Notes under the pieces: model-generated | The model's database searches: none | The model's input: only the letters and a program-made list of their open reading frames with translations | What the model was told of the DNA's origin: nothing | Program-made: the position numbers and the translations under genes | Assembly: GCF_014879935.1 (NCBI RefSeq) | Contig: NZ_JACSRD010000165.1 | Span: forward strand, 1 to 64,000 | Source of the DNA: Prosthecobacter sp. | GTDB taxonomy: Bacteria > Verrucomicrobiota > Verrucomicrobiia > Verrucomicrobiales > Verrucomicrobiaceae | DNA length: 64,000 bases | Direction of reading: 5' to 3' | Shown here: piece by piece, positions 2,367-53,844 of the stretch | How positions within the stretch are numbered: position 1 is the first letter of the stretch | How the letters are laid out: every line of letters starts with the position of its first letter

Positions 2367-2371
2367 CCGGT

Positions 2372-4031: not shown

Positions 4032-4097
4032 GTCCTGTCGCATCCGATCAATCCCCCACCTTGACCGGGCAGATAATTCCGCTTTGATCCGCCACCC

Positions 4098-4616
4098 ATG
4101 AAGCTCTTCCATCTCCTGACACTCCTGGCCCTCGTTTCTCTGGTGAGCTGTGCCACCGCCCCGAAAATCAACCGCATGCCCGTCACAGGTGGAGAAGTCG
4201 TCACCATCGCGAATCGCGGCATTTCGGTCGCATTGCCCACCGGGTGGCGCTTGACCACCTCACAGCCGGCCGACACCCTCTTTCTCGCTGATGCGGATGG
4301 CGGTGCCCTGCGATTCGCCCTGGTCAGCCCGTCAGGGAAACCCAAGGACATCAATGTCGCCAGCGCCAGCTTCCAGAACGGCGTGAAGGGCGCCCTCGCG
4401 GAAAATGGCTTCACCAAAGTCACTCGTGCTGAATTGATCAACGTGTCCGGCGTGAACGCCTTCGTTTGTGCCGCCACCGCGAAGTCCGAGTCGGTGATGC
4501 AGGTCCACCTGATCCACCGTGGAAAGGCCCTGCTGCTGGTGTTTTACTCGAAGAAGACGCCAGTCACCCAGGTGGCCTCCATCAAGGCGATCCTCAATTC
4601 ATTCCAAGTCCGCTGA
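4098..4616 (+). CDS. Lipoprotein of unknown function
   Basis: A 172-residue protein. The N-terminus is a lipoprotein signal with lipobox LVSC and acylated cysteine at residue 18. The mature domain begins with a short linker and reads as an alternating beta/alpha fold (RGISVALPTGWRL..., later LIHRGKALLLVFYSKK), reminiscent of small lipid-anchored domains that bind or refold at the membrane. I do not recognise the family. It follows a terminator, and miaA starts 63 bases downstream. Confidence 0.8.
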   Translation: MKLFHLLTLLALVSLVSCATAPKINRMPVTGGEVVTIANRGISVALPTGWRLTTSQPADTLFLADADGGALRFALVSPSGKPKDINVASASFQNGVKGALAENGFTKVTRAELINVSGVNAFVCAATAKSESVMQVHLIHRGKALLLVFYSKKTPVTQVASIKAILNSFQVR

Positions 4617-4679
4617 GGCCTGCCAGCCGCCCCTGACGGCTCAATCCAGGTCGCGGCGTGATGCAACGTCGCACCCGTC

Positions 4680-6670: not shown

Positions 6671-6729
6671 CGACCTGATGAACGAATGACGACGTACCGA
6701 CCAGAACCGAAGCCGCGCAGCACAGCCTG

Positions 6730-6760
6730 CATTCGTCACTCGTCATCCGTCATCCGTCAT
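6730..6760. repeat. Short tandem heptamer array before the BatA-like gene
   Basis: On the minus strand the segment reads as four imperfect 7-base units (ATGACGG, ATGACGG, ATGACGA, GTGACGA) ending in ATG. A related single copy in the opposite orientation (GAATGACGAC) lies near 6685, so the 95-base spacer has inverted as well as direct repetition. It ends 6 bases before the start codon at 6766. Confidence 0.7.
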
Positions 6761-6765
6761 TTTTG

Positions 6766-19525: not shown

Positions 19526-19617
19526 CCCCGAGACCGGGCTCGCATCCTGCTCAGAAAGAACGGCGTTTCTTGGTTGCGCATGCCGAATGCAAAACCCAAA
19601 GTGACATTCTGCCCGAC

Positions 19618-20238
19618 ATGCCTCCCACGGACTCAAGCCTCAACATCACCCAGACCAAGTTTCTCCTCGGAACCGCAGAACGTGAGATGCTGACCGGCCA
19701 TCATGGCCTTGTGGTGTGGATGACTGGACTTTCGGGAGCGGGCAAATCGAGCATCGCAGTCGGCCTGGACCATCATCTCAACCGCCAGCGCCATCTGTCC
19801 TACATCCTGGACGGCGACAACCTGCGCTCCGGCCTGTGCATGGACCTTTCCTTCAGCGAACAAGACCGCAGCGAGAACATCCGACGCGCGGGTGAAGTGG
19901 CCAAGCTCATGGCCGAGGCCGGGCTGATTGTCATCTGCGCCCTGATTTCGCCCTTTGCCATGGACCGCAAGAAAGTGCGGGAAAGCTGCGACAAGTCGGC
20001 AGTCCCCTTCATGGAGGTGTTCATCAACGCCCCTCTTGAGGTCTGCGAGCAGCGTGACCCCAAGAAACTCTATCAGCGCGCCCGCGCGGGCTCCATTCCG
20101 GGCTTCACCGGCATCGATTCGCCTTACGAGGCACCGGTGAATCCCGAGGTCGAACTGCGCACCGACCTGCACAGTCTCGATGACTGCATCCGTCATCTCG
20201 CGGCCAATATCACGAAACGCACGGCCTTGGAAGGCTGA
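19618..20238 (+). CDS. cysC: Adenylylsulfate (APS) kinase
   Basis: Phosphorylates APS to PAPS, the sulfate donor. The 206-residue protein has the P-loop GLSGAGKS at residues 37-44, LDGDNLRSGL, FSEQDRSENIRR, FISPF-like LISPFAMDR, and PGFTGIDSPYE, all typical of CysC. The ATG at 19618 is preferred over an upstream in-frame TTG. No sulfate adenylyltransferase (cysD/cysN or sat) is in the window. A PAPS-type sulfotransferase is encoded at 34465, so this kinase probably feeds glycan sulfation rather than cysteine synthesis (inference). Confidence 0.94.
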   Translation: MPPTDSSLNITQTKFLLGTAEREMLTGHHGLVVWMTGLSGAGKSSIAVGLDHHLNRQRHLSYILDGDNLRSGLCMDLSFSEQDRSENIRRAGEVAKLMAEAGLIVICALISPFAMDRKKVRESCDKSAVPFMEVFINAPLEVCEQRDPKKLYQRARAGSIPGFTGIDSPYEAPVNPEVELRTDLHSLDDCIRHLAANITKRTALEG

Positions 20239-23137: not shown

Positions 23138-24967
23138 TCAGTCGAGAAACTGCCGCGCCCAGATTTCGAGATTGATCCACTGCCAGATGAAGAAGGAGTT
23201 CTGGTTGTCGCCAGCCAGGTAGCGATCATAACGCTCCTTCGCACGATCAGGGCAGATCCATCCACGTTGCCGGAAAGACGCGCTGCCGAGGATGTCTTCG
23301 ACGAAGGGCCTCCACTCGTTCGCCAGCCACTCCCGCTGCGGGCTTTGCACGGTGCGTTTGGGTGCCTCGGCGACGGCTGGATCAATTTGCCGGCGCAACA
23401 ATTCGCGCACCGGCGCCTTGGTGCCGCGCCGGTTCATCAAGATCTCCGGTGACAATGCCAGCCCCCATTCAACCAGTTCGTGGTCCATGAACGGAACACG
23501 CAGTTCCTTAGAGTACATCATCGAGATGCGGTCGTTGAAGCGGAGCGCTCGTGGAATCTTGGTGGCGAGGAGGTCGCTCATCGCCAGATCACGTGCCGAG
23601 TGGCCTGTGGATGGCGGGAGCGTTGGAGTTCGGATTTCCGCGTTCCGCAAGACACTGCCCATGGCTTCGGCGTGAAAAGGGATCGTGCCATCGATGGCCG
23701 CACCGCCGCCGACGCGGGCGTGGGCGAGGTGCTTTTCGATGCCGGCCCGCGGTTCCTGCCAGAATGCCATGTACTCAGACAAAGCGGCCTCATAGGCCGG
23801 TGTGCCCAGCTTCTGGGCGAGGTCGGCCAGGTGGTACTTTTTGTAGCCGAGGAAGATTTCATCGACGCCGTTGCCGTCCAGCAAGACCGTCACGCCAAGC
23901 GAACCCGCGCACTCATACAACGGAGCAAAGCCAATGACCGGAACACCCCCAAACGGCTCCGCCTGATGCCGTAACACGGATTCGAACCGTGCCAGGCAAT
24001 CTTCCGCGTCCTGCATGATGTAATGACAATTCACGCCCGTGCCCTGCGTCGCACGCCTTACCCAATCTCGCTCGCTGTAAGGATCTGCGTAATCCTGGGT
24101 GAAACCATGGATCTCCGGATGAAACCGGGTGACGTAATGGATGAGCGTGGACGAATCGACTCCGCCAGAGACGTTCACCCCGACAGGCACATCACTGATC
24201 AAGTGACGTTTGACCACAGCCGCCAGCAGATGGTCCAGTTCTTCGAGGATGTCTTCTTCTTTGCACGCAGTGCGACCCGCAGCCTTGGCTGCGACGTCAT
24301 ACCAGCGGACGATCTTCACTGCCGCGGGATCATCGAGACTCACCCGCATGCAGCAGCCTGCCTCAAGGCGGATCACCCCTTCAAAGAAGGTGGGCGTGCC
24401 GATCTCGTAGGTGCCGGTGGCCAGGAAGGTCTTGATCGTGTTCAAGTCAGGCGAACGTCGGCCCAGCATCGCAAGCAACGGCGGAATCTCGCTGGCAAAC
24501 AGCCACTGGCCGTCTCGGGACGCGTGGTAGAATGGTTTGATGCCAAAACGATCACGTGCCGCGAACATGGCCCGCTCGGCACGATCATAAATGGCGAAGG
24601 CGAACATGCCATTGAGGTGATCCAGCATCTTGTCCCCCATCGCGGCGAACAGTTCGACCAGCACCTCCGTGTCGCCGTCGGTGCGCCATTCATGCCCGGG
24701 CAGCAGCGCTCTCAGCTCACGATAGTTGAACACTTCCCCGTTGAAAACGATCAGGTAGCGGCCGCAGGCGGATGCCATGGGCTGGTTGGCACGATCATTG
24801 AGGTCCAGAATCTTCAGACGCTTGTGGCCGAGCACGCAGCGTGAGCCTTCCAAGGATTCGAGCCGCCACGCATCAGGACCGCGGTGATTCATCAGATCAA
24901 GGGCACGACGGCAGAGGTCTTGATCGAAAAGTTTTTGCAGGCTCAGCCCGCCAAGAATGCCACACAT
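23138..24967 (-). CDS. asnB: Asparagine synthetase (glutamine-hydrolysing)-like amidotransferase
   Basis: A 609-residue two-domain protein. The N-terminal Ntn glutaminase starts with the catalytic Cys2 (MCGILGG) and shows NHRGPDAWR and FNGEVFNYRELR. The C-terminal ATP-pyrophosphatase domain has the PP-loop NVSGGVDSS and GFTQDYADPYSERD. The length fits the AsnB family. In glycan loci such proteins often amidate a sugar acid or other carboxylate rather than making free asparagine, and that is a reasonable reading here given the uronate and nonulosonate genes (inference). It is transcribed against its neighbours: tail-to-tail with neuA, and head-to-head with the gene at 24989. Confidence 0.88.
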   Translation of the reverse strand: MCGILGGLSLQKLFDQDLCRRALDLMNHRGPDAWRLESLEGSRCVLGHKRLKILDLNDRANQPMASACGRYLIVFNGEVFNYRELRALLPGHEWRTDGDTEVLVELFAAMGDKMLDHLNGMFAFAIYDRAERAMFAARDRFGIKPFYHASRDGQWLFASEIPPLLAMLGRRSPDLNTIKTFLATGTYEIGTPTFFEGVIRLEAGCCMRVSLDDPAAVKIVRWYDVAAKAAGRTACKEEDILEELDHLLAAVVKRHLISDVPVGVNVSGGVDSSTLIHYVTRFHPEIHGFTQDYADPYSERDWVRRATQGTGVNCHYIMQDAEDCLARFESVLRHQAEPFGGVPVIGFAPLYECAGSLGVTVLLDGNGVDEIFLGYKKYHLADLAQKLGTPAYEAALSEYMAFWQEPRAGIEKHLAHARVGGGAAIDGTIPFHAEAMGSVLRNAEIRTPTLPPSTGHSARDLAMSDLLATKIPRALRFNDRISMMYSKELRVPFMDHELVEWGLALSPEILMNRRGTKAPVRELLRRQIDPAVAEAPKRTVQSPQREWLANEWRPFVEDILGSASFRQRGWICPDRAKERYDRYLAGDNQNSFFIWQWINLEIWARQFLD

Positions 24968-27733: not shown

Positions 27734-29257
27734 ATGCAGAACCGATTCGATTTCCGCGGCCTCTATGTCCTGGACATGGCCAACAACCATCAGGGACAGC
27801 TCGACCATGCCCTGCGCATCGTCAGCGAACATGGCAAAGCAGTCGCCAAACATGGAGCAAAGGCCGCGTTGAAGTTCCAGTTCCGCCACTTCGACACCTT
27901 CATCCATCCCGCGCATAAGTCCGGCTCCAGCAACAAGCACATTCCGCGCTTCCTGGCCAATGCGCTGAGCGATGACGACTTTGCCACACTGACGCGTGCC
28001 GTGCGTGAGGCCGGCATGCTCACGATGGCCACTCCGTTTGATGAGGAATCGGTCGATCTCATCGAGAAGCTCGACATCTCCATCATCAAAATCGCCAGCT
28101 GTTCCGCACGTGACTGGCCGCTGCTGGAAAAGGCCGCACGGCACAACCGCCCGTTCATCGTTTCGACCGGAGGCCTGACGCTTGCCGAGATCGACGACGT
28201 GGTCAGCTTCCTGGAGCACCGCAGCGTGGACTTCGCGCTGATGCATTGCGTGTCGGTTTATCCGACTCCGCCGGAGCACCTGCAGCTCAACCAGATCACC
28301 ACGCTGAAACAACGCCATCCGCGCATCACCGTGGGTTTCTCCACCCACGAGGACCCGGCGGATACCCGCCCGGTGATGGTAGCAGTGGCAAAAGGAGCAG
28401 AAATGCTCGAGCGCCACGTCGGTGTCGTTACAGACAAGATCCAGCTCAACGCCTATTCATCCACGCCCGAGCAAACAGATGCGTGGATCGCGGCCGCGCA
28501 AGACGCACGGATCATGTGCGGGGCCACCACACGTCCCGTTTCGATTCCGGTCGAGCAGGAGTCCCTCAAATCACTCAAGCGCGGCGTGTTCGCAGCCCGG
28601 ACGCTCCAGACCGGAGATGCCTTGGAACGCGACGCGGTTTACTTTGCGATGCCGATGACAGAAGGCCAGCTCACCAGTGACTTGTGGAAGCCCGGCATCA
28701 AGACCATGACCGAAGTGGCTCAGGACGGCGCCATCATGATGACGGGTGTCCAACTGCCGCCCGTGCCCCCGAAGAAGCATCTGATCCATGCCATCCATGA
28801 GATCAAGAGCATGCTGAATGAGGCAAGGATCTTCCTGCCAGTGGACTTCAATCTCGAGTTTTCCCATCACTACGGCGTGGAAAAGTTTGACGAAACGGGC
28901 GCGGTGCTGATCGACTGCATCAACCGCGAGTACTGCAAGAAAATCGTCATCCAGCTTCCAGGACAGGCCCATCCGAACCACTTCCACAAACGGAAGGAAG
29001 AAACGTTCCAGGTGCTGGCCGGAGAGCTCGAACTGGTGCTCGAAGGCAGGCTGCGTGTGCTTTATCCGGGAGATCTGCACCTCATCCCACAGGGGGCTTG
29101 GCATAGTTTCTCGACCAAGACGGGTGTCATCTTCGAGGAAGTCTCCACCACCCACCACAACGATGATTCGTTCTATGAGGATAAGCTCATCAACGAACGT
29201 GGACGGGATTTCCGCAAGACTGTGGTCAAGCAGTGGGGCCGTTATCAGCTCGACTAG
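27734..29257 (+). CDS. neuB: NeuB-type nonulosonic acid synthase fused to a cupin
   Basis: A 507-residue three-part protein. Residues ~1-265 are the NeuB TIM barrel, which condenses PEP with a 6-carbon N-acyl sugar (MANNHQG, ALKFQFR, IIKIAS, IVSTGG, MHCVSVYPTPPEH, VGFSTHE). Residues ~280-335 are the SAF/antifreeze-like domain (LKSLKRGVFAARTLQTGDAL). Residues ~365-507 form a cupin with the metal-binding HFHKRKEETFQVL and later IPQGAWHSF. Plain NeuB enzymes are about 340-350 residues, so the cupin is an added module. It is followed after 2 bases by a HAD hydrolase. Confidence 0.9.
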   Translation: MQNRFDFRGLYVLDMANNHQGQLDHALRIVSEHGKAVAKHGAKAALKFQFRHFDTFIHPAHKSGSSNKHIPRFLANALSDDDFATLTRAVREAGMLTMATPFDEESVDLIEKLDISIIKIASCSARDWPLLEKAARHNRPFIVSTGGLTLAEIDDVVSFLEHRSVDFALMHCVSVYPTPPEHLQLNQITTLKQRHPRITVGFSTHEDPADTRPVMVAVAKGAEMLERHVGVVTDKIQLNAYSSTPEQTDAWIAAAQDARIMCGATTRPVSIPVEQESLKSLKRGVFAARTLQTGDALERDAVYFAMPMTEGQLTSDLWKPGIKTMTEVAQDGAIMMTGVQLPPVPPKKHLIHAIHEIKSMLNEARIFLPVDFNLEFSHHYGVEKFDETGAVLIDCINREYCKKIVIQLPGQAHPNHFHKRKEETFQVLAGELELVLEGRLRVLYPGDLHLIPQGAWHSFSTKTGVIFEEVSTTHHNDDSFYEDKLINERGRDFRKTVVKQWGRYQLD

Positions 29258-30841: not shown

Positions 30842-31271
30842 GCCATGGAGGACATGCCTTTCTACTACAAGGATCTACCCCCCTACAGACTTGCAGAACA
30901 GTGTGCAGTTGACCCTCTCCACGACTGAGGACCATGAGGTGAACGGCTTCATTGCACGTCGCTACGTAAACAGACCGAAGCATGAATACGGCCTGATCTT
31001 CATCGACGGCCCCGAGATTCCCAGCCAGAAGGAGGACCCGCGTTATCTCGACGGTGATATGCTCGATGTGGTGGAATGGAACAAGAAGCCCTTCACCGCC
31101 TACCTCGACTGCCGCATCGGCACCCGGGACGTCATCAAGGCGCTCATGCCCCGCGCCACCCTTCACTGGAACAAGCAGCACAAGTTCTCGCGCGTATCGT
31201 TTTCTCCTGCCACAAAACAAGGCATGATCACAGCTTGCCGCCGGTCAGGGCGAGTATCTGACCAGACATGA
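30842..31271 (+). pseudogene. Truncated, frameshifted methyltransferase-like fragment
   Basis: The longest part is an open frame from the TTG at 30891, which reads HEYGLIFIDGP, DGDMLDVVEWN, AYLDCRIGTRD and NKQHKFSRVSF, resembling the C-terminal half of a Rossmann methyltransferase-like family ('FIDGP' is the usual strand). The matching upstream piece, MEDMPFYYKDLP, lies in another frame and joins it at a run of six C (30878-30883). No SAM-binding N-terminal half is present. The fragment also runs 44 bases into the convergent SDR gene. I read it as a degraded remnant; a short novel gene is less likely. Confidence 0.5.
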
Positions 31272-32418
31272 AGCCGCTGTCGCGGCCTATGAGATACTTG
31301 ACCATGGCCAGTACGTCCCCGGCCCCGCATAGACGTCCGGCAGGAACGAGAGCCTTCTCTTTCAACATCACACGTTCTGCCGTGGCATGATTCATGCCGA
31401 GAGGCATGAACGACGGACAGATGGCATTCACCGTGATCTGGCGCCTGGCGGCCTCTGGAGCGAGCAGGCGGACACAGTTCTCAAGGCACGCCTTGCCCAG
31501 CGAATAGGCGCTCAGGTGAAGGTTCGGATCCTTGGAACCATAGGTGGAGCCAACCGCGATGAACCTGCCTCCCTGATCCTGCGAGCGCTCAAACAGCACA
31601 CGCATCAATTCAATGGGGATGCGTGTGCCGTGGCGCACTTGTTCCTCAATCATGGCCAAATCACTGGTGATCAGGCTGGAACGGGACGGTCGCGGCCATG
31701 CCGCGTGAATAATGCCATAAAGAGGCATCCGGCCCAGTGCGCCCTCCAGTCCATCACGCCAGTTTGGATTGTCGAAATCCAGTGTGATCCAGTTCAATCC
31801 AGAGCCGTCATTCCCGGAGCTGAGACGGGTGGTGGCGTACACTACAAACTCCGATTTCAGCGACTCCGCAATCTCCCGTCCCAAACCTCCGCCAGCCCCG
31901 GTGACAAGCACCGCATGCCTGCCATCCTGATATGCTTTTTCTTGAGGTGTTTGAAGAGCGGAGGTCTCCGCCACGCAGCTTTCCTTTTCCTCGTGGTAAC
32001 CAAAAGAGATGAAAACACTGGCAGTCAGGCACCGGGAAGCCTTCTCCATGACCGTAACTTTCAACTGTCCCATGCGGGTGGTTTCGTTCCACGACGTGAT
32101 CTCGCCTCTGACCACAACCTGGCACGGATAGTACAACGGAGCCGGAAACTGGCTCTGCATGCTGCCGATCACCACCTGCCTACCCGGCAGATGCATGCCT
32201 GCCATGGCGGATGCTAGCCCGAGTTGAAAAACTCCATGAACGATGGGTCGCTGGTACTGCGTCATGGCCGCATAATCCACGCTCAAGTGCAGAGGATTGA
32301 AATCCCCCGAGACTGCCGCGAAGGCGCGAACCTCCTCCGGTCCAATCGACTGTTCCCATTCATGCGCCAGGCCCGCTTTGAGGGCATGCGGTGGGAAATA
32401 CTGTGCTTCAGGCGTCAT
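31228..32418 (-). CDS. MaoC-like hotdog domain fused to a short-chain dehydrogenase
   Basis: A 396-residue fusion. Residues ~1-145 are a MaoC-type hotdog hydratase/dehydratase domain (AFAAVSGDFNPLHLSVDYA with the catalytic Asp/His pair, then RPIVHGVFQLGLASAM). Residues ~165-396 are an SDR reductase with TGAGGGLGREIAE as cofactor loop, GSTYGSK with the serine, YSLGK as YxxxK, and VNAICPSFM. Together these could dehydrate and reduce a beta-keto or beta-hydroxyacyl chain. It is the last gene of a coupled operon with an acyl carrier protein and an FkbH-like gene: its ATG lies 11 bases inside the ACP gene. Confidence 0.87.
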   Translation of the reverse strand: MTPEAQYFPPHALKAGLAHEWEQSIGPEEVRAFAAVSGDFNPLHLSVDYAAMTQYQRPIVHGVFQLGLASAMAGMHLPGRQVVIGSMQSQFPAPLYYPCQVVVRGEITSWNETTRMGQLKVTVMEKASRCLTASVFISFGYHEEKESCVAETSALQTPQEKAYQDGRHAVLVTGAGGGLGREIAESLKSEFVVYATTRLSSGNDGSGLNWITLDFDNPNWRDGLEGALGRMPLYGIIHAAWPRPSRSSLITSDLAMIEEQVRHGTRIPIELMRVLFERSQDQGGRFIAVGSTYGSKDPNLHLSAYSLGKACLENCVRLLAPEAARRQITVNAICPSFMPLGMNHATAERVMLKEKALVPAGRLCGAGDVLAMVKYLIGRDSGFMSGQILALTGGKL

Positions 32419-32647
32419 GCAGGCTTTCCTGAATCCATGCGAGGAAGAGTTCGAAAGACATCATCTCCTCAAAATTTTCCGGGGGCATCTGCAATCCAAA
32501 CTCCTCATCCACCAGAGTGACCAAGGTCACCATCGCGACGGAATCCCAGTCTGCAACGGAATGGCTCGTGGCGCGGCGCACTTCATCGTCCCTGAGTTCC
32601 GGGAACACATTTTTGAAACAATTGATCAAACGCTCTTCGTGGCTCAT
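32408..32647 (-). CDS. Acyl carrier protein
   Basis: A 79-residue acidic protein with the ACP four-helix pattern. The phosphopantetheine attachment site is DWDSVAMVTLV (serine near residue 36, DSV in place of the usual DSL), followed by EEFGLQMPPENFEEM. The start at 32647 (MSHEERLIN) is chosen because it overlaps the preceding fkbH-like stop as ATGA; an in-frame start 21 bases earlier also exists. It carries an acyl or glyceryl-type group as a thioester, presumably loaded by the neighbouring FkbH-like protein and processed by the MaoC-SDR fusion (inference). Confidence 0.9.
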   Translation of the reverse strand: MSHEERLINCFKNVFPELRDDEVRRATSHSVADWDSVAMVTLVTLVDEEFGLQMPPENFEEMMSFELFLAWIQESLHDA

Positions 32648-34356
32648 GCGGATTGGAAGGTGAAGCAAAGCTCCGGGCGTGCCTTCAAAAAGGCATCGCG
32701 TCGGATCATGCAGTCGCCTGACGCTCCACAGGCGTCAAGCACATTAAAAAAGGCACCGTTGCGCTCTGTTCGAAGTGCCGTCGTGTGAATTTCCCGAACA
32801 CCTGTCTTTTCGAACAGCCAGGCAAGACAGGCGTGCTCGATCCTGCGGTTGAAGGCCCTGCAACTCATGACCCAATGCTCCAAGGTGAGCACGCCATCAT
32901 CAACCATGCCCGTGATGACCGCGATCCGCCCCAGCGGGCCGAAACGGTCTTCATACGCGAAAGTAAACGCCACCACGTTCTGCCTGGACAACGCCGCCGC
33001 CCACTCGGCCTCGGACGGACGTCGACCGTTCATGTTGAACTGGTTTGTCTTCAGTACCAATGCCAGCGACCTGGCGTCTGTTTCCCGGCGTGTGTCGGTG
33101 ATGACTAGGCGTGCGTTCAATGACTGGTGAAAGCGGTCCTCGTCGAAATCCTCCGCGCATGCATTGTATGCGGCCTGGGAGCGAATGGAGGCTGCTCTGA
33201 TGGCATCTTCCGCCATCAGACGCCCCCTTGCGAAGAGGTCTCGAATCTCCACCAGGAAATCATCAAACGCCGCCACATTCGCAGGCGGGAACAACCGACA
33301 GTGAATGGCAGGAAACGCCTCCTTAATCCGCTCGATCTCACGCTCATCGTCATCGACAAAAAGCACATGCCCCGCCCCGATGTTCCAGGCCGCCAGAATG
33401 CGCGAGATGGACTCCACCTTGCTACCCCAATGAACCTCCAGAGGAAAAAACAGGCAGGGGTTGATGAGCAGGTCGTTCCGCTGAAATGCCTTTTCCACAA
33501 CCGCCGGGTCATTCCTGCTGGCCACCGCGAGAAGGACACCCGCATCAGCAAGCACGGCCAACAACCTCTGATAGAGGCCGTGCCGCTGCGCCTTGCCGTC
33601 CAGATCCCAGCGAATCCCATCCACACCATCTTCCCCCACAATTCCTCTCCAAAAGGTGTTGTCGAGATCTGTGACCAGCCCACGCAGGGGCTCTGGTGGC
33701 CGCATCAGGCTCACGATCTCTTTTGCCAAGGCCGAGCAGGCTTCCGTCGTGAAAGGAAGACCACTCGTCAGAAGCTGGTTCAAATCCAGTCTGCGCACGG
33801 GAAGCCGGGCCACTAGGCCATCGACATCCAGACACTTGATGCCGGGCTCGACGGCCAGTTCTGCAGTCATTTCCGCAACCAGAAGACGCATCTGCGCCCG
33901 CTCCGCTCCCGCGTGTGAGCCCTGCAGCATGTCGAACGGGGGCAACGGAAGAAGCGGCGGCACAAAAATTACCGGCTGGCGGACCGCCAGCTGCCTGCAA
34001 AGCACCGTCAGCCGTCCTGCTGCCTGGCGGGCCTCCATCAGCGAGGCAGCGCTTCTCGTACCAGCAAGGGCTCCATTGCCACGCCATGACAGGCAGGGAT
34101 TCAAGTCTTCCCAGCTCATCATCACGATGCAGCCTTCCGCAGGATTTCCCTCGGCTTTCTCCAAATTGGCTGGCAGGCTGCCATAGGCTCCGCCCACGAC
34201 CTGGAGATCCTCCTCCGGCCGGATGAGCCTGAAGCAGGCACGCAGAAAGGTGCCCAGATGCAACGGCTCAAAACTAGCCGCCAGCCGCCAGCGACTGACA
34301 CCCTTCGTTGCGGGCGGCGCGGCGCGCAGCATGGACATGGCTTCGCCCAGCTTCAT
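32644..34356 (-). CDS. FkbH-like HAD/acyltransferase-type protein
   Basis: A 570-residue protein of the FkbH-like family. After an N-terminal region of about 220 residues comes the HAD-type motif LVTDLDNTFWRG near residue 230 with GIVGEDG, then LAVASRNDP, HWGSKVESI, VLFVDDDEREIE. From about residue 400 a GNAT-like domain reads LVLKTNQFNMNGRRPSEAEW, DRFGPLGRIAVI and MSCRAFNRRIEHA. In polyketide clusters FkbH loads a glyceryl unit from 1,3-bisphosphoglycerate onto an ACP. Here it is the first gene of a three-gene coupled operon with an ACP and a MaoC-SDR fusion. The upstream region is AT-rich. Confidence 0.9.
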   Translation of the reverse strand: MKLGEAMSMLRAAPPATKGVSRWRLAASFEPLHLGTFLRACFRLIRPEEDLQVVGGAYGSLPANLEKAEGNPAEGCIVMMSWEDLNPCLSWRGNGALAGTRSAASLMEARQAAGRLTVLCRQLAVRQPVIFVPPLLPLPPFDMLQGSHAGAERAQMRLLVAEMTAELAVEPGIKCLDVDGLVARLPVRRLDLNQLLTSGLPFTTEACSALAKEIVSLMRPPEPLRGLVTDLDNTFWRGIVGEDGVDGIRWDLDGKAQRHGLYQRLLAVLADAGVLLAVASRNDPAVVEKAFQRNDLLINPCLFFPLEVHWGSKVESISRILAAWNIGAGHVLFVDDDEREIERIKEAFPAIHCRLFPPANVAAFDDFLVEIRDLFARGRLMAEDAIRAASIRSQAAYNACAEDFDEDRFHQSLNARLVITDTRRETDARSLALVLKTNQFNMNGRRPSEAEWAAALSRQNVVAFTFAYEDRFGPLGRIAVITGMVDDGVLTLEHWVMSCRAFNRRIEHACLAWLFEKTGVREIHTTALRTERNGAFFNVLDACGASGDCMIRRDAFLKARPELCFTFQSA

Positions 34357-34464
34357 GACACGCGGTTCAGCAGGGTTCCTTCGTTTGGCATGGGTGTGGA
34401 GAAGGGGGAAATAATGATGTTATCTTATTGACGCAAACTCTTGTTTTCGCTTTTTTGAAGTCCT
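34357..34464. promoter_or_regulatory. AT-rich divergent intergenic region
   Basis: The 108 bases between the divergent fkbH-like and sulfotransferase genes are clearly AT-richer than their surroundings. A plus-strand TTGACG at 34428-34433 is a plausible -35 for the sulfotransferase, but no good -10 follows at normal spacing. The region is a likely bidirectional promoter on position; no operator was recognised. Confidence 0.35.
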
Positions 34465-35283
34465 ATGATCCATCGGTCTCTTAAAGCAGCACTTCGACAT
34501 GATTCCCTTGGAGGAACCTTCTGTCGGCTGCTGTTGGGATACCCTGCTCCGTCGCTGGTCCGGCAACGTTGCATCTTCATTGCGTGCTTCCCAAAATCGG
34601 GTTCCACCTACATGGCCCGCCTGCTTGAGGCTGCCACTCACCGCAGTGGCTTGAAAGCCGCCTATCTGATGGGACACAATGAACAAAACATTGATGAGAA
34701 GGCCTTGGCACGCTGCGTCCGCAAGTTATCCGTCGTCCAGCAACATACTCAAGGAGGAGACTGTAATGTGAATTTGCTGGCCAAGTTTCATCTGCAGCCC
34801 ATCATCTTGACCAGAAACCTGCCCGACATTGCGATTTCGCTACTCGACCATCTTCATTTGCATCAACACACTAGAAATCCCATGGCCTTCGCTCCCGGCA
34901 ACTTTTTCGATTGGCCGCAGGAGGAACAATTGCGTTGGATCATCTGGGCCTACATGCCCTGGTACTTTAGTTTTTATCAGTCTTGGAAAACCAACGGAAG
35001 CCGGATCAATGCCCTTTGGGTCGAATTCAACGATATGATCTCCCGTCCGGTCGAGGTGGTCGGCGGACTGCTTCAGAAGATGGGATTGCCATGTGATATC
35101 AAGGCTCTCGAACAATCCACGGATCCCCACAACAGTGGAAAACACACACGCATTAACAAGGGCGTCACCGGACGTGGCTCCCAGCTTTCTGCAGAACTAA
35201 AGGCCCACCTTTGGGATTTGGCCGATGTGTGGAAATTCGGGCTTGAAGATCGTGAGCGACTGGGCCTGGAACGTCATATCTGA
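34465..35283 (+). CDS. PAPS-dependent sulfotransferase
   Basis: A 272-residue sulfotransferase that would move sulfate from PAPS to a hydroxyl or amine on a glycan. The 5'-phosphosulfate loop is FPKSGSTYM at residues 42-50. The 3'-phosphate-binding segment is LTRNLPDIAISLLDHL near residue 115. The C-terminal motif TRINKGVTGRGSQLS corresponds to the conserved RKGxxG region. It is AT-richer than its neighbours, as is its upstream region, which hints at separate acquisition. The APS kinase at 19618 supplies the donor (inference). Confidence 0.88.
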   Translation: MIHRSLKAALRHDSLGGTFCRLLLGYPAPSLVRQRCIFIACFPKSGSTYMARLLEAATHRSGLKAAYLMGHNEQNIDEKALARCVRKLSVVQQHTQGGDCNVNLLAKFHLQPIILTRNLPDIAISLLDHLHLHQHTRNPMAFAPGNFFDWPQEEQLRWIIWAYMPWYFSFYQSWKTNGSRINALWVEFNDMISRPVEVVGGLLQKMGLPCDIKALEQSTDPHNSGKHTRINKGVTGRGSQLSAELKAHLWDLADVWKFGLEDRERLGLERHI

Positions 35284-35290: not shown

Positions 35291-36421
35291 ATGACGTCCC
35301 TCGTCCCGACCATTGAATGGTGCCCTGTCAGCCGTGTTCCAGCCTTGATGGCATTCATCGACGAAGTCTGGAAGACAGGCCATGTTCTAGGTCGGGACGC
35401 CAGTCTGCTTCGATGGCAATATCAGCACCCCCTGCTCCCAAACCGCCTCTCAGTGCTGATCGCCACGGATTCCGATGTCATTTTAGGAATGCTGGGCGTG
35501 ATCTTTCACCAGTTTAACGACCATGGAACCCGCATGCCCGCCGCCATGCTGGCTACCTGGGTGACCCGCAGGGAAAAACGTGCAGCCGGCCTGGGATTGC
35601 GGATGTTGAACTCTCTCCATGCCTCCGACGTTAAAGTCATCGGCTGCCTGGGTGCCGACACCAAAACCACAGTTCCCATCTGCCGCGCCTATGGATATGC
35701 CGTACTCGACCATGTGCCGCGCTTCATCAAAGTCTTTGATCCTGAGGCGCTTTCCGCGCTTCTCGCATCTGCATCTCCGGCATCAACCGGATCCCAGTTC
35801 GAGGCCTGGACACAGCCCCAGCCCACAAAGCGCCTTTCGTCGTCCGGCGAGGTCACACGCGTCACCCCATGGGGGCATCACTCCGCCGACATGTGGGATG
35901 AGTGCTGGCATGAGCGTCTGGCACCGCATTTGAGATCCTTCGAGAAGGACGCCAAATTCATCGGACGGAGATACCTAGCACACCCGGCTTTTGTTTACAC
36001 CATCCTCATGGCTTGTGACCCATCAGACAAGTGCCAGGGTCTGGCCATCTGCCGTATCGAGCAGGTCCGGGACAGGAGCGAAAAGATTTTGCACGTCTGC
36101 GAGTTTTTGGCGGCGTCCCAGACGGCGGCGCATGCCTTGCTCGCAGCGATATCTGAGATTGCGATGAAAGAGTCCATTTGCTTTGCCACATGTCATTTCA
36201 CCCATGAGGAAGCCGGTCGCTGGCTTGAAGAAGACGGTTTCCGAAAGGAAAACCCAAGTCAGCCCATGGCCCCCACTCTTTTCCAGCCATTGGACTTTCG
36301 GCGTCATTCCTTGAACGGAGTCATCTGGCTGGCCAAAGGCAGACCAACCGCCGGGGCGCTGCTCGCCTCTTCCGACTTTTATTGGGTTCGTGGCGACGGG
36401 GACCAGGACCGGCCAAATTGA
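35291..36421 (+). CDS. GNAT-like N-acyltransferase
   Basis: A 376-residue protein. The first half shows a GNAT-type fold with SLLRWQYQHPL, ILGMLGVIFHQF, and a pantetheine-binding loop in VTRREKRAAGLGLRML. The second half is a less clear, possibly degenerate GNAT repeat. Related two-GNAT proteins acylate amino sugars or peptides. The ATG at 35291 lies 7 bases after the sulfotransferase stop, so the two are likely co-transcribed. The acceptor and acyl donor are unknown; an ACP-bound donor from the operon at 31.2-34.4 kb is one possibility (speculative). Confidence 0.72.
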   Translation: MTSLVPTIEWCPVSRVPALMAFIDEVWKTGHVLGRDASLLRWQYQHPLLPNRLSVLIATDSDVILGMLGVIFHQFNDHGTRMPAAMLATWVTRREKRAAGLGLRMLNSLHASDVKVIGCLGADTKTTVPICRAYGYAVLDHVPRFIKVFDPEALSALLASASPASTGSQFEAWTQPQPTKRLSSSGEVTRVTPWGHHSADMWDECWHERLAPHLRSFEKDAKFIGRRYLAHPAFVYTILMACDPSDKCQGLAICRIEQVRDRSEKILHVCEFLAASQTAAHALLAAISEIAMKESICFATCHFTHEEAGRWLEEDGFRKENPSQPMAPTLFQPLDFRRHSLNGVIWLAKGRPTAGALLASSDFYWVRGDGDQDRPN

Positions 36422-36457: not shown

Positions 36458-37885
36458 ATGTCATCCCCATCCCTCAAGCTGCTTTTCTTTGTCGAGAATC
36501 CCACCTCGCTCCAGCATCTCACGCGTTCGAGGCTGCTGCACCATCTCACCGATGAGCAGCAAGGCTTCGTGTGCACGGTCGTCCTGCCGCCCACTCTCAG
36601 GCTTTCTGACGAGGAGTTGAAGCACCTCCAGCATGTCCGCTTTCACTACCTCGACTTTCACCGGCTACGGCCTGTGGATTTTCAGGCAAGGACGCTCAAG
36701 AAGTCCCTGCATGCCGTGGCCAGGGATCTGCTCACCGTCACCGCCCCTCATTCCACTCTTTCCCAAGACCGGCACCATCTCTTCAAACAAAAGGGCAGAA
36801 GCGCACGCCTGCGTCTGCTGTATGCCGACCTGCTGAAGAAAGCGGGACTGAAGAGCCACCACATCGGGCGGATGGCGCAGAACTTTGGCGTCTATCCGGA
36901 GATCGCCTCGCTGTTGGACGCAGAACCACCCGATTATGTCATCTATTTCAACATCCTGATCGGGCAGATGGATTTTCTGCGGGAGGTGAAACGACGCGGC
37001 ATCCCGCTCATCCTGGACATCCCCAACTGGGACCAGGCGTCCTCCAAGGGCCCCATGACCGTGCTGCCGGACCATGTTTTTGTCTGGTCGAATTTCATCA
37101 AGAAAGACTTCTGCGAGATCCATCATTTCCCCCCCGAGCGCGTGCGCACGATCGGCGTGCTCCAGTTTGACTACTATTTTCAGGGCAACAAGCCTCTTTC
37201 CCGTGAGGAGTTCTGCAAGATTCACAACATTCCCGTTGAGTCGAAGATCGTCTTGTATGCCTATGGGCAGCCACCCGGCATCAGGGCCTGCGGCCCGTTT
37301 GTCAAAGAGATCATCGACATCATCGGAGACAACAAGCAGGGCTTCCGCTGCCATCTGATATTCCGCGCCAGCCCGCGCGTCCCCTTTCCGACAATGCTCA
37401 ACGACGAGCCCAACATCAGCATCCAGCATCCTTCCGGCCATGAATCCCCGGACGGCCTGGGGTGGATTTCATCCCCCAATGAGGACCGCATGCGGATGAG
37501 CACATTGATGCACAGCGACGTCGTCATCAACATATTCTCCACCATGATGCTTGATGCACTGTGCCTCCGGAGGCCCGTCATCAACATAGGCTATGTGTGT
37601 GGTGCGACCGAGGACCAGCCGAACCTGATGGAACGCTTTTTCAAATACACGCACCTGAGCGCCGTGATGAAAAGTGGCGGCACCTGGATTCCCCGCAACC
37701 GGGCCGAACTCGGCCAGGCGATCAAGGAGGCGTTGACAGCCCCGGCATCCTGCGGATCCGCCGCCCAGGAACTCCTGCAGGAGATCTGCGGCCCTTCAGA
37801 CGGGAAATCCTACCTTCGCTGGGTGGACGCCCTGCAAAAAGCACATGCCTACGAGTCTGCGAAGACGGAAAGGGCCAAGCCATGA
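36458..37885 (+). CDS. Putative GT-B glycosyl/glycerophosphotransferase-like protein
   Basis: A 475-residue protein with a GT-B-like layout. The N-terminal half begins LKLLFFVENPTSLQHL. The C-terminal half has DHVFVWSNFIKKDF, RTIGVLQFDYYF, VLYAYGQPPGI, LIFRASPRVPFP, MHSDVVINIFSTMMLDALCLRRPVINIG, the last resembling the donor-site pattern of CDP-glycerol phosphotransferase and surface-carbohydrate proteins. I cannot name its substrate. It overlaps the following deacetylase by 4 bases (ATGA), so the two are coupled. Confidence 0.68.
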   Translation: MSSPSLKLLFFVENPTSLQHLTRSRLLHHLTDEQQGFVCTVVLPPTLRLSDEELKHLQHVRFHYLDFHRLRPVDFQARTLKKSLHAVARDLLTVTAPHSTLSQDRHHLFKQKGRSARLRLLYADLLKKAGLKSHHIGRMAQNFGVYPEIASLLDAEPPDYVIYFNILIGQMDFLREVKRRGIPLILDIPNWDQASSKGPMTVLPDHVFVWSNFIKKDFCEIHHFPPERVRTIGVLQFDYYFQGNKPLSREEFCKIHNIPVESKIVLYAYGQPPGIRACGPFVKEIIDIIGDNKQGFRCHLIFRASPRVPFPTMLNDEPNISIQHPSGHESPDGLGWISSPNEDRMRMSTLMHSDVVINIFSTMMLDALCLRRPVINIGYVCGATEDQPNLMERFFKYTHLSAVMKSGGTWIPRNRAELGQAIKEALTAPASCGSAAQELLQEICGPSDGKSYLRWVDALQKAHAYESAKTERAKP

Positions 37886-38823
37886 CCTCCCGGATTCTGG
37901 TCATTTCATATCACTATCTCCGCAGCAAGGAGGACATTCCTCACCCGGGCATCCACCCGCTCACACCGGAGTCTTTTTTGCGTCAGATCCATTCGATCCA
38001 GCAAAACCATCCCGTCTTGTCCCCCTCGCAGTTTGAAACGTGGATGGACGGCAGTTCCGCAGATGCCTCGTCCGTGCTGCTCACCTTTGATGACGGCCTG
38101 CGTGACCACCTTTATGCGGCGGCCGAACTGGAGAAGTCTGGCCTGCGCGGCGCCTTTTTTGTATGCTCCAGACCAGCCCTGGACAACAAGGCCCTTCCTG
38201 TCCACAAGGTCCACTGGCTGCGCGCCCACACACCTCCTGGGGATTTCCTCAACCAGTTTGCGGCACTGCTTTCCGACGACTGGCAGCAGATGGTCGCCCA
38301 GCCTCCTGAAGACATCCGGCGTGCCGCTGCGGAAACCTACCAGTTCGACGCCCCGGACACACAGGTTCTGAAGTACCTCATCAACTTTGTCCTGCCTTAT
38401 GAATGCGTGGACGAAATCACGTCCCGCATGCTGGTCGGCCATGGCCTGGACGAGATGACATTCTGCGCGCTAAGCTATCTGACGAATGAGGAGATTCATG
38501 ATCTGTCCCGACGCGGCCACCTGATCGGCTGTCATGGCCATCTCCATCTGCCGTTCTCTCGCCTTGCGCGTGGGAAGCTTCAGGAGGATGTGGCCAAAAA
38601 TAAAGCCTACATCCATACCGTCACCGGTGCCCAAGCTGGTTGGCTGGCCTACCCTTATGGCAGTGACTGGTCATTGCCTGCGGACACCGGGATGTTTGCC
38701 GCCAGGGCCGGCATCCGCGCCGCCTTCACCTACACGCGGGGATGGAACACGCAATCAACCCCGCGCCACCGCCTGTGCCGCATCGACTGCAACGAGCTTG
38801 AGGCGCATCTGACAGTCTGCTAA
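37882..38823 (+). CDS. Polysaccharide deacetylase (NodB-type)
   Basis: A 313-residue protein of carbohydrate esterase family 4. The first metal-binding motif is LTFDDGLRDHL near residue 75 (TFDDG). The second is GCHGHLHLPFSRL near residue 216 (HxxxH type). A later AYPYGSDW fits motif 3. No signal peptide is seen, so it probably acts on a cytoplasmic, lipid-linked or nucleotide-linked intermediate, or is exported by another route. CE4 enzymes remove N- or O-acetyl groups from GlcNAc-type residues. It starts within the stop codon of the gene before it. Confidence 0.88.
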   Translation: MTSRILVISYHYLRSKEDIPHPGIHPLTPESFLRQIHSIQQNHPVLSPSQFETWMDGSSADASSVLLTFDDGLRDHLYAAAELEKSGLRGAFFVCSRPALDNKALPVHKVHWLRAHTPPGDFLNQFAALLSDDWQQMVAQPPEDIRRAAAETYQFDAPDTQVLKYLINFVLPYECVDEITSRMLVGHGLDEMTFCALSYLTNEEIHDLSRRGHLIGCHGHLHLPFSRLARGKLQEDVAKNKAYIHTVTGAQAGWLAYPYGSDWSLPADTGMFAARAGIRAAFTYTRGWNTQSTPRHRLCRIDCNELEAHLTVC

Positions 38824-44585: not shown

Positions 44586-45104
44586 ATGCCCATGCCACCC
44601 GACTCTTCCAATGCGCTCACTCTGGGCGAGGGCGTTTACATAAGCCCGGACGCGCGCATCCACCCGTCGACACGCGGCACGCGCATCATCATCGGTGCGC
44701 ACACGCAGATTTACGATTTTGTCTGCATCCGCGCGGTTGGCGGCGCGGGAGACCTGGTCATGGGAGAGCACTGCTACATCAACCCACACTGCGTCATGTT
44801 CACCGGCAACGGTATCACGCTTGGGGACTATGTTCTGCTGGCTCCCGGCGTCATGCTCATGCCAGCGAATCATGCTTTTGGCCGTCGGGACATCCCCGTC
44901 CGTCATCAGGGCTTCTTGGAGAGCAAGGGCGGCATTTTCATTGAGGACGATGTCTGGATTGGCGCCAACAGCGTCATTCTCGACGGAACCCACATCGGCA
45001 AGGGAGCCATCATCGCCGCCGGCAGCGTAGTGCGGGGGCAGGTGCCGCCCTATGAGATTTGGGGCGGCACTCTTGCGGTGAAAATCAAGAGCAGGCCGGC
45101 TTGA
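44586..45104 (+). CDS. Hexapeptide-repeat acyltransferase
   Basis: A 172-residue left-handed beta-helix protein with repeated [LIV]-G-x4 hexads. Examples are LGEGVYISPDARIHPS, IGAHTQIYDF, MGEHCYINPHCVMF, LGDYVLLAPGVML, IEDDVWIGANSVILDGTHIGKGAIIAAGSVVRG. The histidine in ANHAF is the usual catalytic position. Such enzymes O- or N-acetylate sugars with acetyl-CoA. The ATG at 44586 (or 44592) is preferred to a long upstream in-frame extension lying inside the previous gene. Its 3' end overlaps by 20 bases the end of a convergent methyltransferase pseudogene. Confidence 0.88.
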   Translation: MPMPPDSSNALTLGEGVYISPDARIHPSTRGTRIIIGAHTQIYDFVCIRAVGGAGDLVMGEHCYINPHCVMFTGNGITLGDYVLLAPGVMLMPANHAFGRRDIPVRHQGFLESKGGIFIEDDVWIGANSVILDGTHIGKGAIIAAGSVVRGQVPPYEIWGGTLAVKIKSRPA

Positions 45105-51697: not shown

Positions 51698-52807
51698 ATG
51701 AAGGTCGCCCATGTGTTCATCCGCATGCCGGTCGGCGGCGCAGAAGATCTGGTCGGTGACATCCTGCGAACCATGCCCGAGGGCGCGGACATGCGGGTCG
51801 TTTGCCTCCAGAACCTCGGCAAGGTCGGTGAAGCCCTTCAGCAGCAGTTCCCCGGTCGTGTCAATCTGCTGCCCTGGGTGCCCGGAAAGCGCTTCCGGAT
51901 TGGTGCCGTCTTGAAACTGAGCCGCTGGCTACGCGACGAGGGCATTCAGCTTGTGCACACACATGTCTATAACGCGCACGTCTATGGCCTGCTCGCCGCC
52001 CGCCGGGCCGGGATTCCGGCCGTGCTGCATCATCACAAGACGTATGCCGAAATGCGCTGGCGGCGGAAGATCATCCTGCGGGCCTTGTCCCATCGTGCGG
52101 CGGGGCACATCACCCTGTCGGCGCAGACGCGGGATGATCTGTGCCGGGTGTTCGGCATTCCGCGGGAAAAAGTCCGCGTTTTCGTCAACCCGGTGGACGA
52201 GGAGACCTTCCATCCGGCCGCAGATCGCGAGCAACTTCGCCGCTCGCTCGATCTGAGTGCTGGCACATTGCTCGTGGGCACGGTGGCCTCGTTGACTCCG
52301 CCGAAAAATCATCTCCTCAATGTGTCGATGACCGCCAAGCTCAACGAACTCGGCTTCACCGGCCGCTTTCTGGCCTTTGGCGAAGGCGGCGAGCGCTCAC
52401 GCATCGCCGAGGCGGCCTCCCAACAGAAACTGCCAAACTTCGACCTCATGGGCGCACGCCGCCCCATCGCCCCGTGGATGCAGGCACTCGACGTCTTCAC
52501 GCTTGGCTCCACCTGGGAGGGACAGCCGATGGTGCTGCTTCAGGCGCTGGCTGCCGAGCTTCCAATCGTGGCGTCCAACATCGAAGGAAATGCTGCGGTG
52601 CTCGGCCCCGACCACCCGGCGTTGTTCGATGTCAATGATGCGGAGGCCTATGCGAACACGGTGTGGCGTGTGTTGAACGACGAATCCTTTCGCGCGGCCA
52701 TTCTGGCGCACCAGAAGCGGCGCAGAGCAGACCTGCCCATGCTCCGCGATTACACCAAGGAATTGGTCGCCTTTTACCAGACCATCGTCGGTTTACCGCG
52801 TCACTGA
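51698..52807 (+). CDS. GT4-family glycosyltransferase
   Basis: A 369-residue GT-B protein. It opens MKVAHVFIRMPVGGAEDLVGD with the typical Gly-rich loop, then HTHVYNAHVYGLLAARRAG, LSAQTRDDL, VFVNPVDEETF, VASLTPPKNHLLNVSM, and the donor motif FTLGSTWEGQPMVLLQALAAELPIVAS with E-x7-type spacing. The ATG at 51698 is preferred; an in-frame ATG at 51647 adds 17 residues without similarity. The 229 bases upstream hold no recognised feature. Its 3' end overlaps the convergent NeuB-type gene by 7 bases. Confidence 0.9.
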   Translation: MKVAHVFIRMPVGGAEDLVGDILRTMPEGADMRVVCLQNLGKVGEALQQQFPGRVNLLPWVPGKRFRIGAVLKLSRWLRDEGIQLVHTHVYNAHVYGLLAARRAGIPAVLHHHKTYAEMRWRRKIILRALSHRAAGHITLSAQTRDDLCRVFGIPREKVRVFVNPVDEETFHPAADREQLRRSLDLSAGTLLVGTVASLTPPKNHLLNVSMTAKLNELGFTGRFLAFGEGGERSRIAEAASQQKLPNFDLMGARRPIAPWMQALDVFTLGSTWEGQPMVLLQALAAELPIVASNIEGNAAVLGPDHPALFDVNDAEAYANTVWRVLNDESFRAAILAHQKRRRADLPMLRDYTKELVAFYQTIVGLPRH

Positions 52808-53844
52808 AAGTCATCAAGGCTCAAAAAATGAGCCGCTTTCACCGCATGTTTGAGCGTTCGGCCGATGACCGACTCCAGGTTTGCGGCGGAGATGCCATGA
52901 CCGGGCTTGCGACAGGACAGGTTGTCGCGAGTGAGCGCCGTGCCCGCTGCGAGGTCGGTAGCGGCGACCAAACTCTGGCCGAACATGCGACGCAAGGGCT
53001 CCATCTGCTCAGCGGAGGCATCTTTGACCATTGGACTGGCCTTCATGCGCTCGATGAAGCGAATGCCTTCGACCATCTTCGCAAACTCGTCGGTGGTGAG
53101 AGAAGCGGAAACATCCGGTCCGAACATCTCGCGACTGAAGGTGATGTGCACCTCAATCAACCTTGCGCCGAGCGTCACGGCAGCCAGTGACGGATACGAC
53201 GTGCCGGAGTGATCCGACAGGCCAATCGGGCAATCATAGCGCTGCATCAACTCACTGACCTGATTGAGACCGATTTTCTCCGGAGGACACGGATACGCCG
53301 TCGTGCATTGAAACACGGCGGCAGGTGATCCCGCCGCCTTCAACAAGGCCACCGTCGCATCCATCTCCTCGAGATAACTCATCCCGCTCGAAACCAGCAC
53401 CGGCTTTCTGGTTGCGATCATCGCATCGAGAAACAATCGATTCGTCACCTCACCCGAGGCCACCTTCCAAGCGGTCACGCCGAGGCGCTCGAGCAGGTCG
53501 ATCGCGGCCAGCGAAAAAGGAGAACTCAGGAAAACGAGGCCCTTTTCCTCGGCGTGCTGTTTCAGCCCCGCCCACTGTTCCGCGGTGAATTCCATGCGTT
53601 TCCAGTAGTCGTAACGGGTGGCATCCTGGCGGCTGAACTTCACCCGCCAGGTGTCGAGCTCGGAACTTTCCTCCGCAGCGATGTGGGTTTGAAATTTGAT
53701 CGCGTCCGCACCGGTCTTCGCCACGGCATCGATGTAGGCGTGTGCGGTTCCCAAGCTGCCATCATGAGCCTGCGCGACTTCGGCGATGAGGAAAGACGGC
53801 GCGGCCGGATCCTGCCAGAGGTCGTTGATGTCGCGCGGATTCAT
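52801..53844 (-). CDS. neuB: NeuB-type nonulosonic acid synthase, copy 2
   Basis: A 347-residue synthase of standard NeuB length. The TIM barrel shows FLIAEVAQAHDG, DAIKFQTHIA, FSRQDATRYDYWKRMEFT, FLSSPFS, WKVASGEV, VLVSSGMSY, CTTAYPCPPEKIGL and GLSDHSG. A C-terminal SAF domain follows (GQSLVAATDLAAGTALTRDNL, CRKPGHGI). Unlike the copy at 27734 it has no cupin. The start at 53844 overlaps the stop of the upstream dehydrogenase gene by one base (TGATG), so the two are coupled. Confidence 0.93.
   Translation of the reverse strand: MNPRDINDLWQDPAAPSFLIAEVAQAHDGSLGTAHAYIDAVAKTGADAIKFQTHIAAEESSELDTWRVKFSRQDATRYDYWKRMEFTAEQWAGLKQHAEEKGLVFLSSPFSLAAIDLLERLGVTAWKVASGEVTNRLFLDAMIATRKPVLVSSGMSYLEEMDATVALLKAAGSPAAVFQCTTAYPCPPEKIGLNQVSELMQRYDCPIGLSDHSGTSYPSLAAVTLGARLIEVHITFSREMFGPDVSASLTTDEFAKMVEGIRFIERMKASPMVKDASAEQMEPLRRMFGQSLVAATDLAAGTALTRDNLSCRKPGHGISAANLESVIGRTLKHAVKAAHFLSLDDFQ

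Follow-up and report, generated by a model that had tools for sequence, protein, structure and literature searches.

A three-gene FkbH, acyl carrier protein and MaoC-SDR unit proposed to supply acyl groups for a surface glycan in Prosthecobacter sp.

The window analysed here, a stretch of 64,000 nucleotides from Prosthecobacter sp. (contig NZ_JACSRD010000165.1, positions 1 to 64,000 of the forward strand), carries in a surface-glycan locus three overlapping minus-strand genes that encode an FkbH-type protein, a free-standing acyl carrier protein (ACP) and a single polypeptide joining a MaoC domain to a short-chain dehydrogenase/reductase (SDR). This three-gene order, referred to below as the triad, recurs in several phyla. 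We give an even chance to the reading that their products together supply acyl groups for decorating a surface glycan, with no ketosynthase in the locus, and that glyceryl-ACP would be converted to lactoyl-ACP and the acyl group passed to a sugar. That a glycan receives acyl groups by way of an ACP loaded by FkbH is likely; the identification of lactoyl as the transferred group is tentative and may well be wrong.

The gene for the FkbH-type glyceryl transferase/phosphatase (32644-34356, minus strand) encodes 570 amino acids comprising an N-terminal domain, a HAD-IIIC phosphatase core and a C-terminal GNAT-like domain, and its start agrees with the consensus N-terminus of its relatives, MKLxEAL. 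It is followed by the ACP gene (32408-32647, minus strand; 79 amino acids), with a WDS motif in which Ser36 is the likely phosphopantetheine site, and by the gene for a MaoC hotdog dehydratase/hydratase fused to an SDR reductase (31228-32418, minus strand; 396 amino acids). The FkbH stop and the ACP start overlap by four bases (ATGA, 32644-32647, minus strand), and the end of the ACP gene overlaps the start of the MaoC-SDR gene by 11 bases (32408-32418, minus strand), all as read in the original prediction, which had been made from the DNA sequence alone. The gene identities given there also held. The window FkbH matched the curated FkbH domain model TIGR01686 with 200.8 bits (cut-off 146.65) and gave no Pfam match at E 0.01, while the MaoC-SDR protein matched PF01575 (MaoC, 53.5 bits) and PF13561 (adh_short_C2, 59 bits) in one chain, both above cut-off. 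The ACP is recognised by Ser36, which stands in the DS context of the conserved phosphopantetheine serine; in an alignment of relatives W34 and S36 were kept in 71 of 71 rows and D35 in 69. An AlphaFold2 model of FkbH (mean pLDDT 89.7) found 3slr (BF1531, E 9e-19) and MDP-1 phosphatases as the best solved matches in Foldseek, with GNATs at E about 1e-3, and the predicted fold is as expected for the family. The genome also encodes one ACPS-family phosphopantetheinyl transferase.

Relatives were collected by aligning the window FkbH with the full-length FkbH of a Paludibaculum plasmid (38% identity, with MBOAT, GNAT and glycosyltransferase genes near it) and scanning a genome collection, in which 312 pattern matches gave 252 relatives; unless stated otherwise, locus counts refer to the best 80 of these 252. 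The nearest relatives found were 31–42% identical to the window FkbH. An ACP gene adjoined FkbH in 70 of the 80; in each of the other ten the sequence continues for more than 1.1 kb past FkbH, so that the ACP there is absent or too divergent. The MaoC-SDR fusion followed directly after the ACP in 12 loci (L082, L083, L086, L090, L093, L099, L109, L125, L128, L129, L131 and L135), with 39–47% identity to the fusion in the window. Four phyla account for the hosts (Acidobacteriota, Planctomycetota, Verrucomicrobiota and Myxococcota), apart from a single metagenome-assembled genome labelled Nealsonbacteria. Two pairs (L093/L135 and L109/L128) are near-duplicates, and independent triads are therefore nearer ten than 12. 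Judged by candidate starts (ATG, GTG or TTG, unproven), overlap is possible between FkbH and ACP genes in 11 of the 12 triads and between ACP and MaoC-SDR genes in nine. Gene coupling as seen in the window is thus a recurrent trait, and the FkbH-ACP-MaoC-SDR arrangement is more than chance. We claim no single origin for the triads, because they are scattered in the FkbH tree and the window sits on a long branch. Searches of 387 same-phylum genomes found the MaoC-SDR protein at E 1e-30 in its own genome only, a threshold too strict for the divergent fusion of L044 described below; FkbH matched in 61 of these genomes at E 1e-3, in 56 of them above cut-off. A tblastn search of plasmids with MaoC-SDR returned 364 records, in which coverage of the query never reached 80%, and the matches listed were generic SDRs.

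The catalytic residues of the unit are strongly conserved. Lack of the ACP-loading residues in FkbH would have refuted the original prediction; instead, residues D230, D232, T234, S280, K313, D335, D336, N438-Q-F-N441 and S498-C499-R500 were invariant among the window protein, five further FkbH proteins and L170, a Streptomyces FkbH encoded next to a polyketide synthase. Across the subfamily alignment of 81 rows, six HAD positions were kept in 79–81 and the NQFN and SCR motifs in 80–81; we take the HAD residues and the two motifs to be functional, and our guess is that C499 takes part in loading. Among the window and the 12 triads, D39 and H44 of the MaoC domain, presumably the catalytic Asp/His dyad, were present in 13 of 13 rows. 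The same was true of T173, G174, G180, Y305 and K309 in the SDR domain, and Ser291 was conserved in 11 rows with threonine in L082 and L083; we assume that these positions represent the glycine-rich motif, the catalytic serine and the YxxxK motif.

Ketosynthases were sought by comparing three ketosynthase proteins of the FabF/PKS type and two FabH-family proteins, all from the window's own genome, with the window and the six-frame translations of 103 loci (L040-L142). The window contained no match of either type, in keeping with what had been read from its sequence. Among the 103 loci only L051, a polyketide synthase locus and not a triad, had a FabF/PKS-type match, and among the 80 relatives the single FabH match was in the triad locus L082, leaving 11 of 12 triads with neither type in the stretches searched. 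Constant association of the triads with polyketide synthases, which would have refuted the original prediction, is therefore not observed. Nor is the unit a methoxymalonyl-ACP operon of the FkbG-K type, in which FkbH and ACP are accompanied by two dehydrogenases and an O-methyltransferase: its third gene is MaoC-SDR, Pfam scans of ten window genes found no acyl-CoA dehydrogenase, and a 3HCDH_N match in these genes occurred only below cut-off, in a Gfo/Idh protein. In L082, a PglD-like transferase, a FabH-like gene, an SDR match, FkbH, ACP and MaoC-SDR stand in a row (1994-8053); the PglD-like hexapeptide transferase lies 2.1 kb upstream of FkbH and the FabH-like gene 0.9 kb upstream, between the transferase and the SDR match. 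L082 thus suggests that the unit can acquire chain extension.

These data bear on a different source for the acyl group, in which MaoC-SDR would act in the manner of PhaJ and FabG and supply (R)-3-hydroxybutyryl or a similar short or extended acyl of non-glyceryl origin, as in Pseudomonas syringae viosamine. The closest PDB entry to the fusion by phmmer is the (R)-specific enoyl-CoA hydratase 1iq6, its SDR half resembles FabG-type reductases, and L082 combines a FabH-like gene with a PglD-like transferase. According to the available text on the P. syringae viosamine island, that island has an ACP, a reductase and a ketosynthase III and makes a 3-hydroxybutanoyl-type viosamine (PMC3927599). Such a route would need no FkbH, however, and with the window and 11 of the 12 triads lacking FabF/PKS and FabH matches in the stretches searched we regard it as improbable.

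Under the preferred reading, which rests on family membership for its first steps, FkbH would take a phosphoglyceryl group from 1,3-bisphosphoglycerate, load it onto the phosphopantetheine at ACP Ser36 and remove the phosphate, giving glyceryl-ACP. The MaoC domain would then eliminate the C3 hydroxyl. From the resulting pyruvoyl-ACP enol (2-hydroxyacryloyl-ACP) the SDR half of the fusion, by reducing the C2 ketone, would produce lactoyl-ACP, which would be the simplest product of the two activities on glyceryl-ACP. A GNAT (35291-36421) would move the acyl group to a sugar amine, less likely to a hydroxyl, the amine perhaps having been exposed by a deacetylase (37909-38823). In the bryostatin BryA loading module, FkbH-type loading is reportedly followed by conversion to a D-lactyl starter; unlike the window unit, BryA is said to be part of a modular polyketide synthase.

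It is also conceivable, if unlikely, that the sugar is decorated with glyceryl itself (N- or O-glyceryl), unmodified or no more than oxidised, and that MaoC-SDR has a minor or other role, as perhaps in Campylobacter. Thirteen of the 68 loci without MaoC-SDR carry FkbH together with a GNAT of the tandem type described below, and there glyceryl-ACP may be transferred directly; this is in keeping with the idea that the third gene decides which group is transferred. Published passages on Campylobacter jejuni describe cj1302, an fkbH domain-containing gene in the flagellar glycosylation locus (PMC7099621), and others report a di-O-methylglyceric acid derivative of pseudaminic acid in Campylobacter (PMC3958885); connecting the gene with the derivative is our own suggestion. 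The likeness of the window to the cj1302 locus, an fkbH-domain gene among glycan genes, is drawn from published descriptions; the passages on that locus mention no MaoC-SDR fusion (PMC7099621). Against glyceryl as the final decoration, the MaoC-SDR gene can overlap the ACP gene in nine of the 12 triads, and its catalytic residues are kept throughout apart from the SDR serine, as set out above.

An acyl-ACP made for a sugar should have a transferase close by. We therefore compared the positions of matches in the 80 loci, using window queries only, with the 36% of sequence that lies within 3 kb of FkbH and so is expected by length. Hexapeptide transferases clustered at FkbH, with 24 of 25 matches within 3 kb, and polysaccharide deacetylases did likewise (7 of 9), whereas glycosyltransferases, taken as a control, were at background (12 of 29). 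For a tandem-GNAT family all 20 of 20 matches were within 3 kb, a figure biased upward because the profile was seeded from genes beside the triad. This family is represented in seven of the 12 triads and in 13 of the 68 remaining loci (p 0.008, kinship ignored), and the deacetylase in six and 11 of them, respectively (p 0.016, kinship ignored). Deacetylase, FkbH, ACP, MaoC-SDR and GNAT occur together in L086, L093, L099, L131 and L135, the cassette of L135 continuing into Polysacc_synt_2, DegT, CTP_transf_3 and Glyco_tran_28_C genes that resemble PseB, PseC, PseF and PseG; FkbH and a NeuB-family gene are about 12 kb apart there. In L125 (Minicystis rosea DSM 24000) the sole hexapeptide-like match upstream is weak (E 4e-7; no Pfam match). 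A general link to nonulosonic acid synthesis was considered, since PF03102 matches occur in 8 of 12 triad genomes, and rejected as a rule: several of these matches are weak, and the strong ones lie about 12 kb from FkbH in L135, about 45 kb away on the same contig in L086, about 0.8 Mb away in L125 and, in two genomes, on other contigs. An asparagine-synthase-like amidotransferase is encoded at 23138-24967 of the window, and relatives of it occur in 13 of the 80 FkbH loci. AsnB was rejected as a partner, its matches being no nearer FkbH than background (6 of 13 window-query matches within 3 kb, p 0.31).

Glycan genes, one or more per locus, were present in 49 of the 80 loci and in 8 of the 12 triads in the stretches searched, a count for which no background rate was computed in the case of the 49. 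These numbers touch the idea that the unit feeds a small secreted metabolite, its place in a glycan locus being incidental. FkbH proteins are familiar chiefly from the biosynthesis of polyketides and peptides, as the available parts of two papers describe (PMC8949500, PMC7489565), an Erwinia relative (L041) is accompanied by aminotransferase, ATP-grasp and MFS genes, and 31 of the 80 relatives have no glycan gene by the queries used. Set against this are the hexapeptide transferases, GNATs and deacetylases clustered at FkbH and the glycan genes of the 49 loci, and we consider a metabolite role quite unlikely.

The surface-glycan locus described in the original prediction was recognised in the window by several genes. 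NeuC matched TIGR03568 above cut-off (351.8 bits), a PseF-like protein scored 177 bits, below the cut-off of 205.7, and another cytidylyltransferase is also present, together with nucleotidyltransferase, sugar dehydratase and epimerase genes and glycosyltransferases. Two NeuB-family proteins are encoded at 27734-29257 and 52801-54084, one fused to a cupin and without a SAF match, the other with a SAF domain. A divergent intergenic region of 108 bases (34357-34464) separates FkbH from a plus-strand sulfotransferase gene (34465-35283), which with an APS kinase (19570-20238) suggests that the window glycan is sulfated. The polysaccharide deacetylase that would expose an amine of the acceptor (37909-38823, plus strand; PF01522, 53.1 bits) lies within 5 kb of the unit, and the top phmmer matches of its reading frame (query 37561-38823) were the deacetylases of L097, L099, L093 and L135, three of them triads.

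The proposed transferase is a GNAT-type acyltransferase, probably with two GNAT domains (35291-36421, plus strand; Acetyltransf_9, 24.1 bits for the reading frame from 35225, just below the cut-off of 25), located 0.9 kb from FkbH on the opposite strand. Aligned by hhalign with the 19-member tandem-GNAT alignment it gave a probability of 87%, E 3.9e-6, over 288 columns. Control GNATs also score, so that no conclusion can be drawn from the E-value by itself; the sole feature that appears to set the window GNAT apart is an alignment that keeps the order and covers almost the full length, and it is possibly a distant relative of the tandem-GNAT family beside the triads. Its AlphaFold2 model (mean pLDDT 71.7) retrieved Eis-like two-GNAT proteins and N-myristoyltransferases in Foldseek, and at E 1e-6 it was found among 194 same-phylum genomes in its own genome only. 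An alternative transferase is a hexapeptide acyltransferase about 10 kb away (44586-45104, plus strand; PF00132, 66.8 bits for the reading frame from 44421). The nearby GNAT had been named as a candidate transferase in the original prediction, and this part gained some support from the tandem GNATs in seven triads and the long alignment, but was weakened by the scores of the controls; as a whole, that interpretation is partly supported.

Several observations weigh against the unit acting as proposed. MaoC-type dehydratases are known for 3-hydroxyacyl thioesters without an alpha-hydroxyl, and dehydration of glyceryl-ACP by MaoC is chemistry that we infer; for the SDR, dehydrogenase activity is an alternative. 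Against PF00550 the ACP reaches 17.9 bits, below the cut-off of 20.8, but it keeps Ser36. With its FabH-like gene, L082 shows that the unit is not ketosynthase-free everywhere, and FabH-like genes also occur in 6 of 20 loci with other FkbH genes (L045, L046, L050, L052, L056 and L061). The p-values for GNAT and deacetylase ignore kinship, and the GNAT profile was seeded from triad neighbours. Four of the 12 triads (L083, L109, L125 and L129) have no glycan gene by the queries used. The gene for the window GNAT is oriented divergently and lies outside the operon, the tandem-GNAT family HMM misses the protein at E 1e-3, and two control GNATs matched the tandem-GNAT profile across 118 columns (E 1.2e-7) and 134 columns (E 0.0015). 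Finally, the window contig encodes no DegT aminotransferase, so that the amine would come from deacetylation or the acyl group would go to a hydroxyl.

The window FkbH shares with those of polyketide systems (OzmB, Tmn16 and Mad7/Mad14) the curated family, the HAD and C-terminal residues as found in the polyketide-associated L170 and an adjacent free-standing ACP, a likeness based on the family and L170. It differs from these systems in that the triad has no ketosynthase, acyl-CoA dehydrogenase or O-methyltransferase, has MaoC-SDR as partner and lies in a glycan locus. Acyl-ACP routes to N-acyl sugars, or ACP genes in O-antigen and flagellin glycan loci, have been reported or proposed, in the text available, for wfpC-G of Flavobacterium psychrophilum (PMC6519341), the viosamine island of P. 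syringae (PMC3927599) and the flagellin islands of Aeromonas and enterobacteria (PMC7874193, PMC4875605). As far as these passages go, the loci resemble the window in combining a dedicated ACP and fatty-acid-synthesis-like enzymes with glycan genes, and in F. psychrophilum and P. syringae an acyltransferase is predicted to place the group on a sugar amine. The same passages have the acyl groups made by ketosynthases, LuxE or AMP-dependent ligases, whereas the FkbH of the window would draw on glycolysis. An open-licence literature search of titles and abstracts found, among the matches listed, no paper on FkbH, ACP and MaoC-SDR as a unit among glycan genes. We therefore regard ACP routes in glycan loci and an FkbH gene in a Campylobacter glycan locus as known, and the FkbH-ACP-MaoC-SDR unit with GNAT and deacetylase as apparently new.

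More broadly, a widespread and undescribed pathway is possible though doubtful, in most cases lacking a ketosynthase, in which Acidobacteriota, Planctomycetota, Verrucomicrobiota and Myxococcota would convert 1,3-bisphosphoglycerate to lactoyl-ACP through FkbH-ACP and MaoC-SDR, tandem GNAT and deacetylase would swap N-acetyl for N-lactoyl on sugars of the surface glycan, loci without MaoC-SDR would make N-glyceryl, and the third gene would set the decoration. To our knowledge the surface glycans of these phyla have been little studied. If true, the pathway would tie an enzyme class of antibiotic assembly lines to bacterial cell-surface chemistry and link glycolysis directly to glycan decoration, and the gene signature (FkbH-ACP, a variable third gene, a GNAT or hexapeptide transferase and often a deacetylase) would predict unusual acyl groups.

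Other arrangements of these genes were seen in a sample of 20 stretches and three plasmid regions rather than in an exhaustive search. In L044, from the same phylum and outside the subfamily, a hexapeptide transferase, a MaoC-SDR fusion, FkbH and ACP follow each other with overlaps of 4 bases each, and further neighbours resemble glycan genes by eye. L043 has two transketolase-like genes (by eye) upstream, then FkbH, ACP, a free-standing MaoC, an MBOAT and a further protein (1619-8498), possibly a membrane O-acylation version of the unit. On the Erwinia rhapontici plasmid (L041, 8837-12741) an AAC(3)-like domain (PF02522, 85 bits, above cut-off) is fused to FkbH, and the next chain has an SDR above cut-off with MaoC (23.6 bits, cut-off 27) and ACP (18.3 bits, cut-off 20.8) below it; here the synthesis of an acyl group and its transfer seem to be physically linked. 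Its neighbours, a nucleotidyltransferase-aminotransferase fusion, ATP-grasp and MFS genes, look like a small-molecule pathway. L110, L048, L073 and L096 have proteins of about 480–530 amino acids with a MaoC match near FkbH; Pfam placed an SDR domain above cut-off in that of L110 and just below in that of L048, and we read these as a longer variant of the fusion. A small VOC/glyoxalase_4 protein (L089:8141-8626 and relatives) had 21 of 23 matches within 3 kb of FkbH with the L089 sequence as the only query, and is perhaps another tailoring enzyme for a carrier-bound acyl group.

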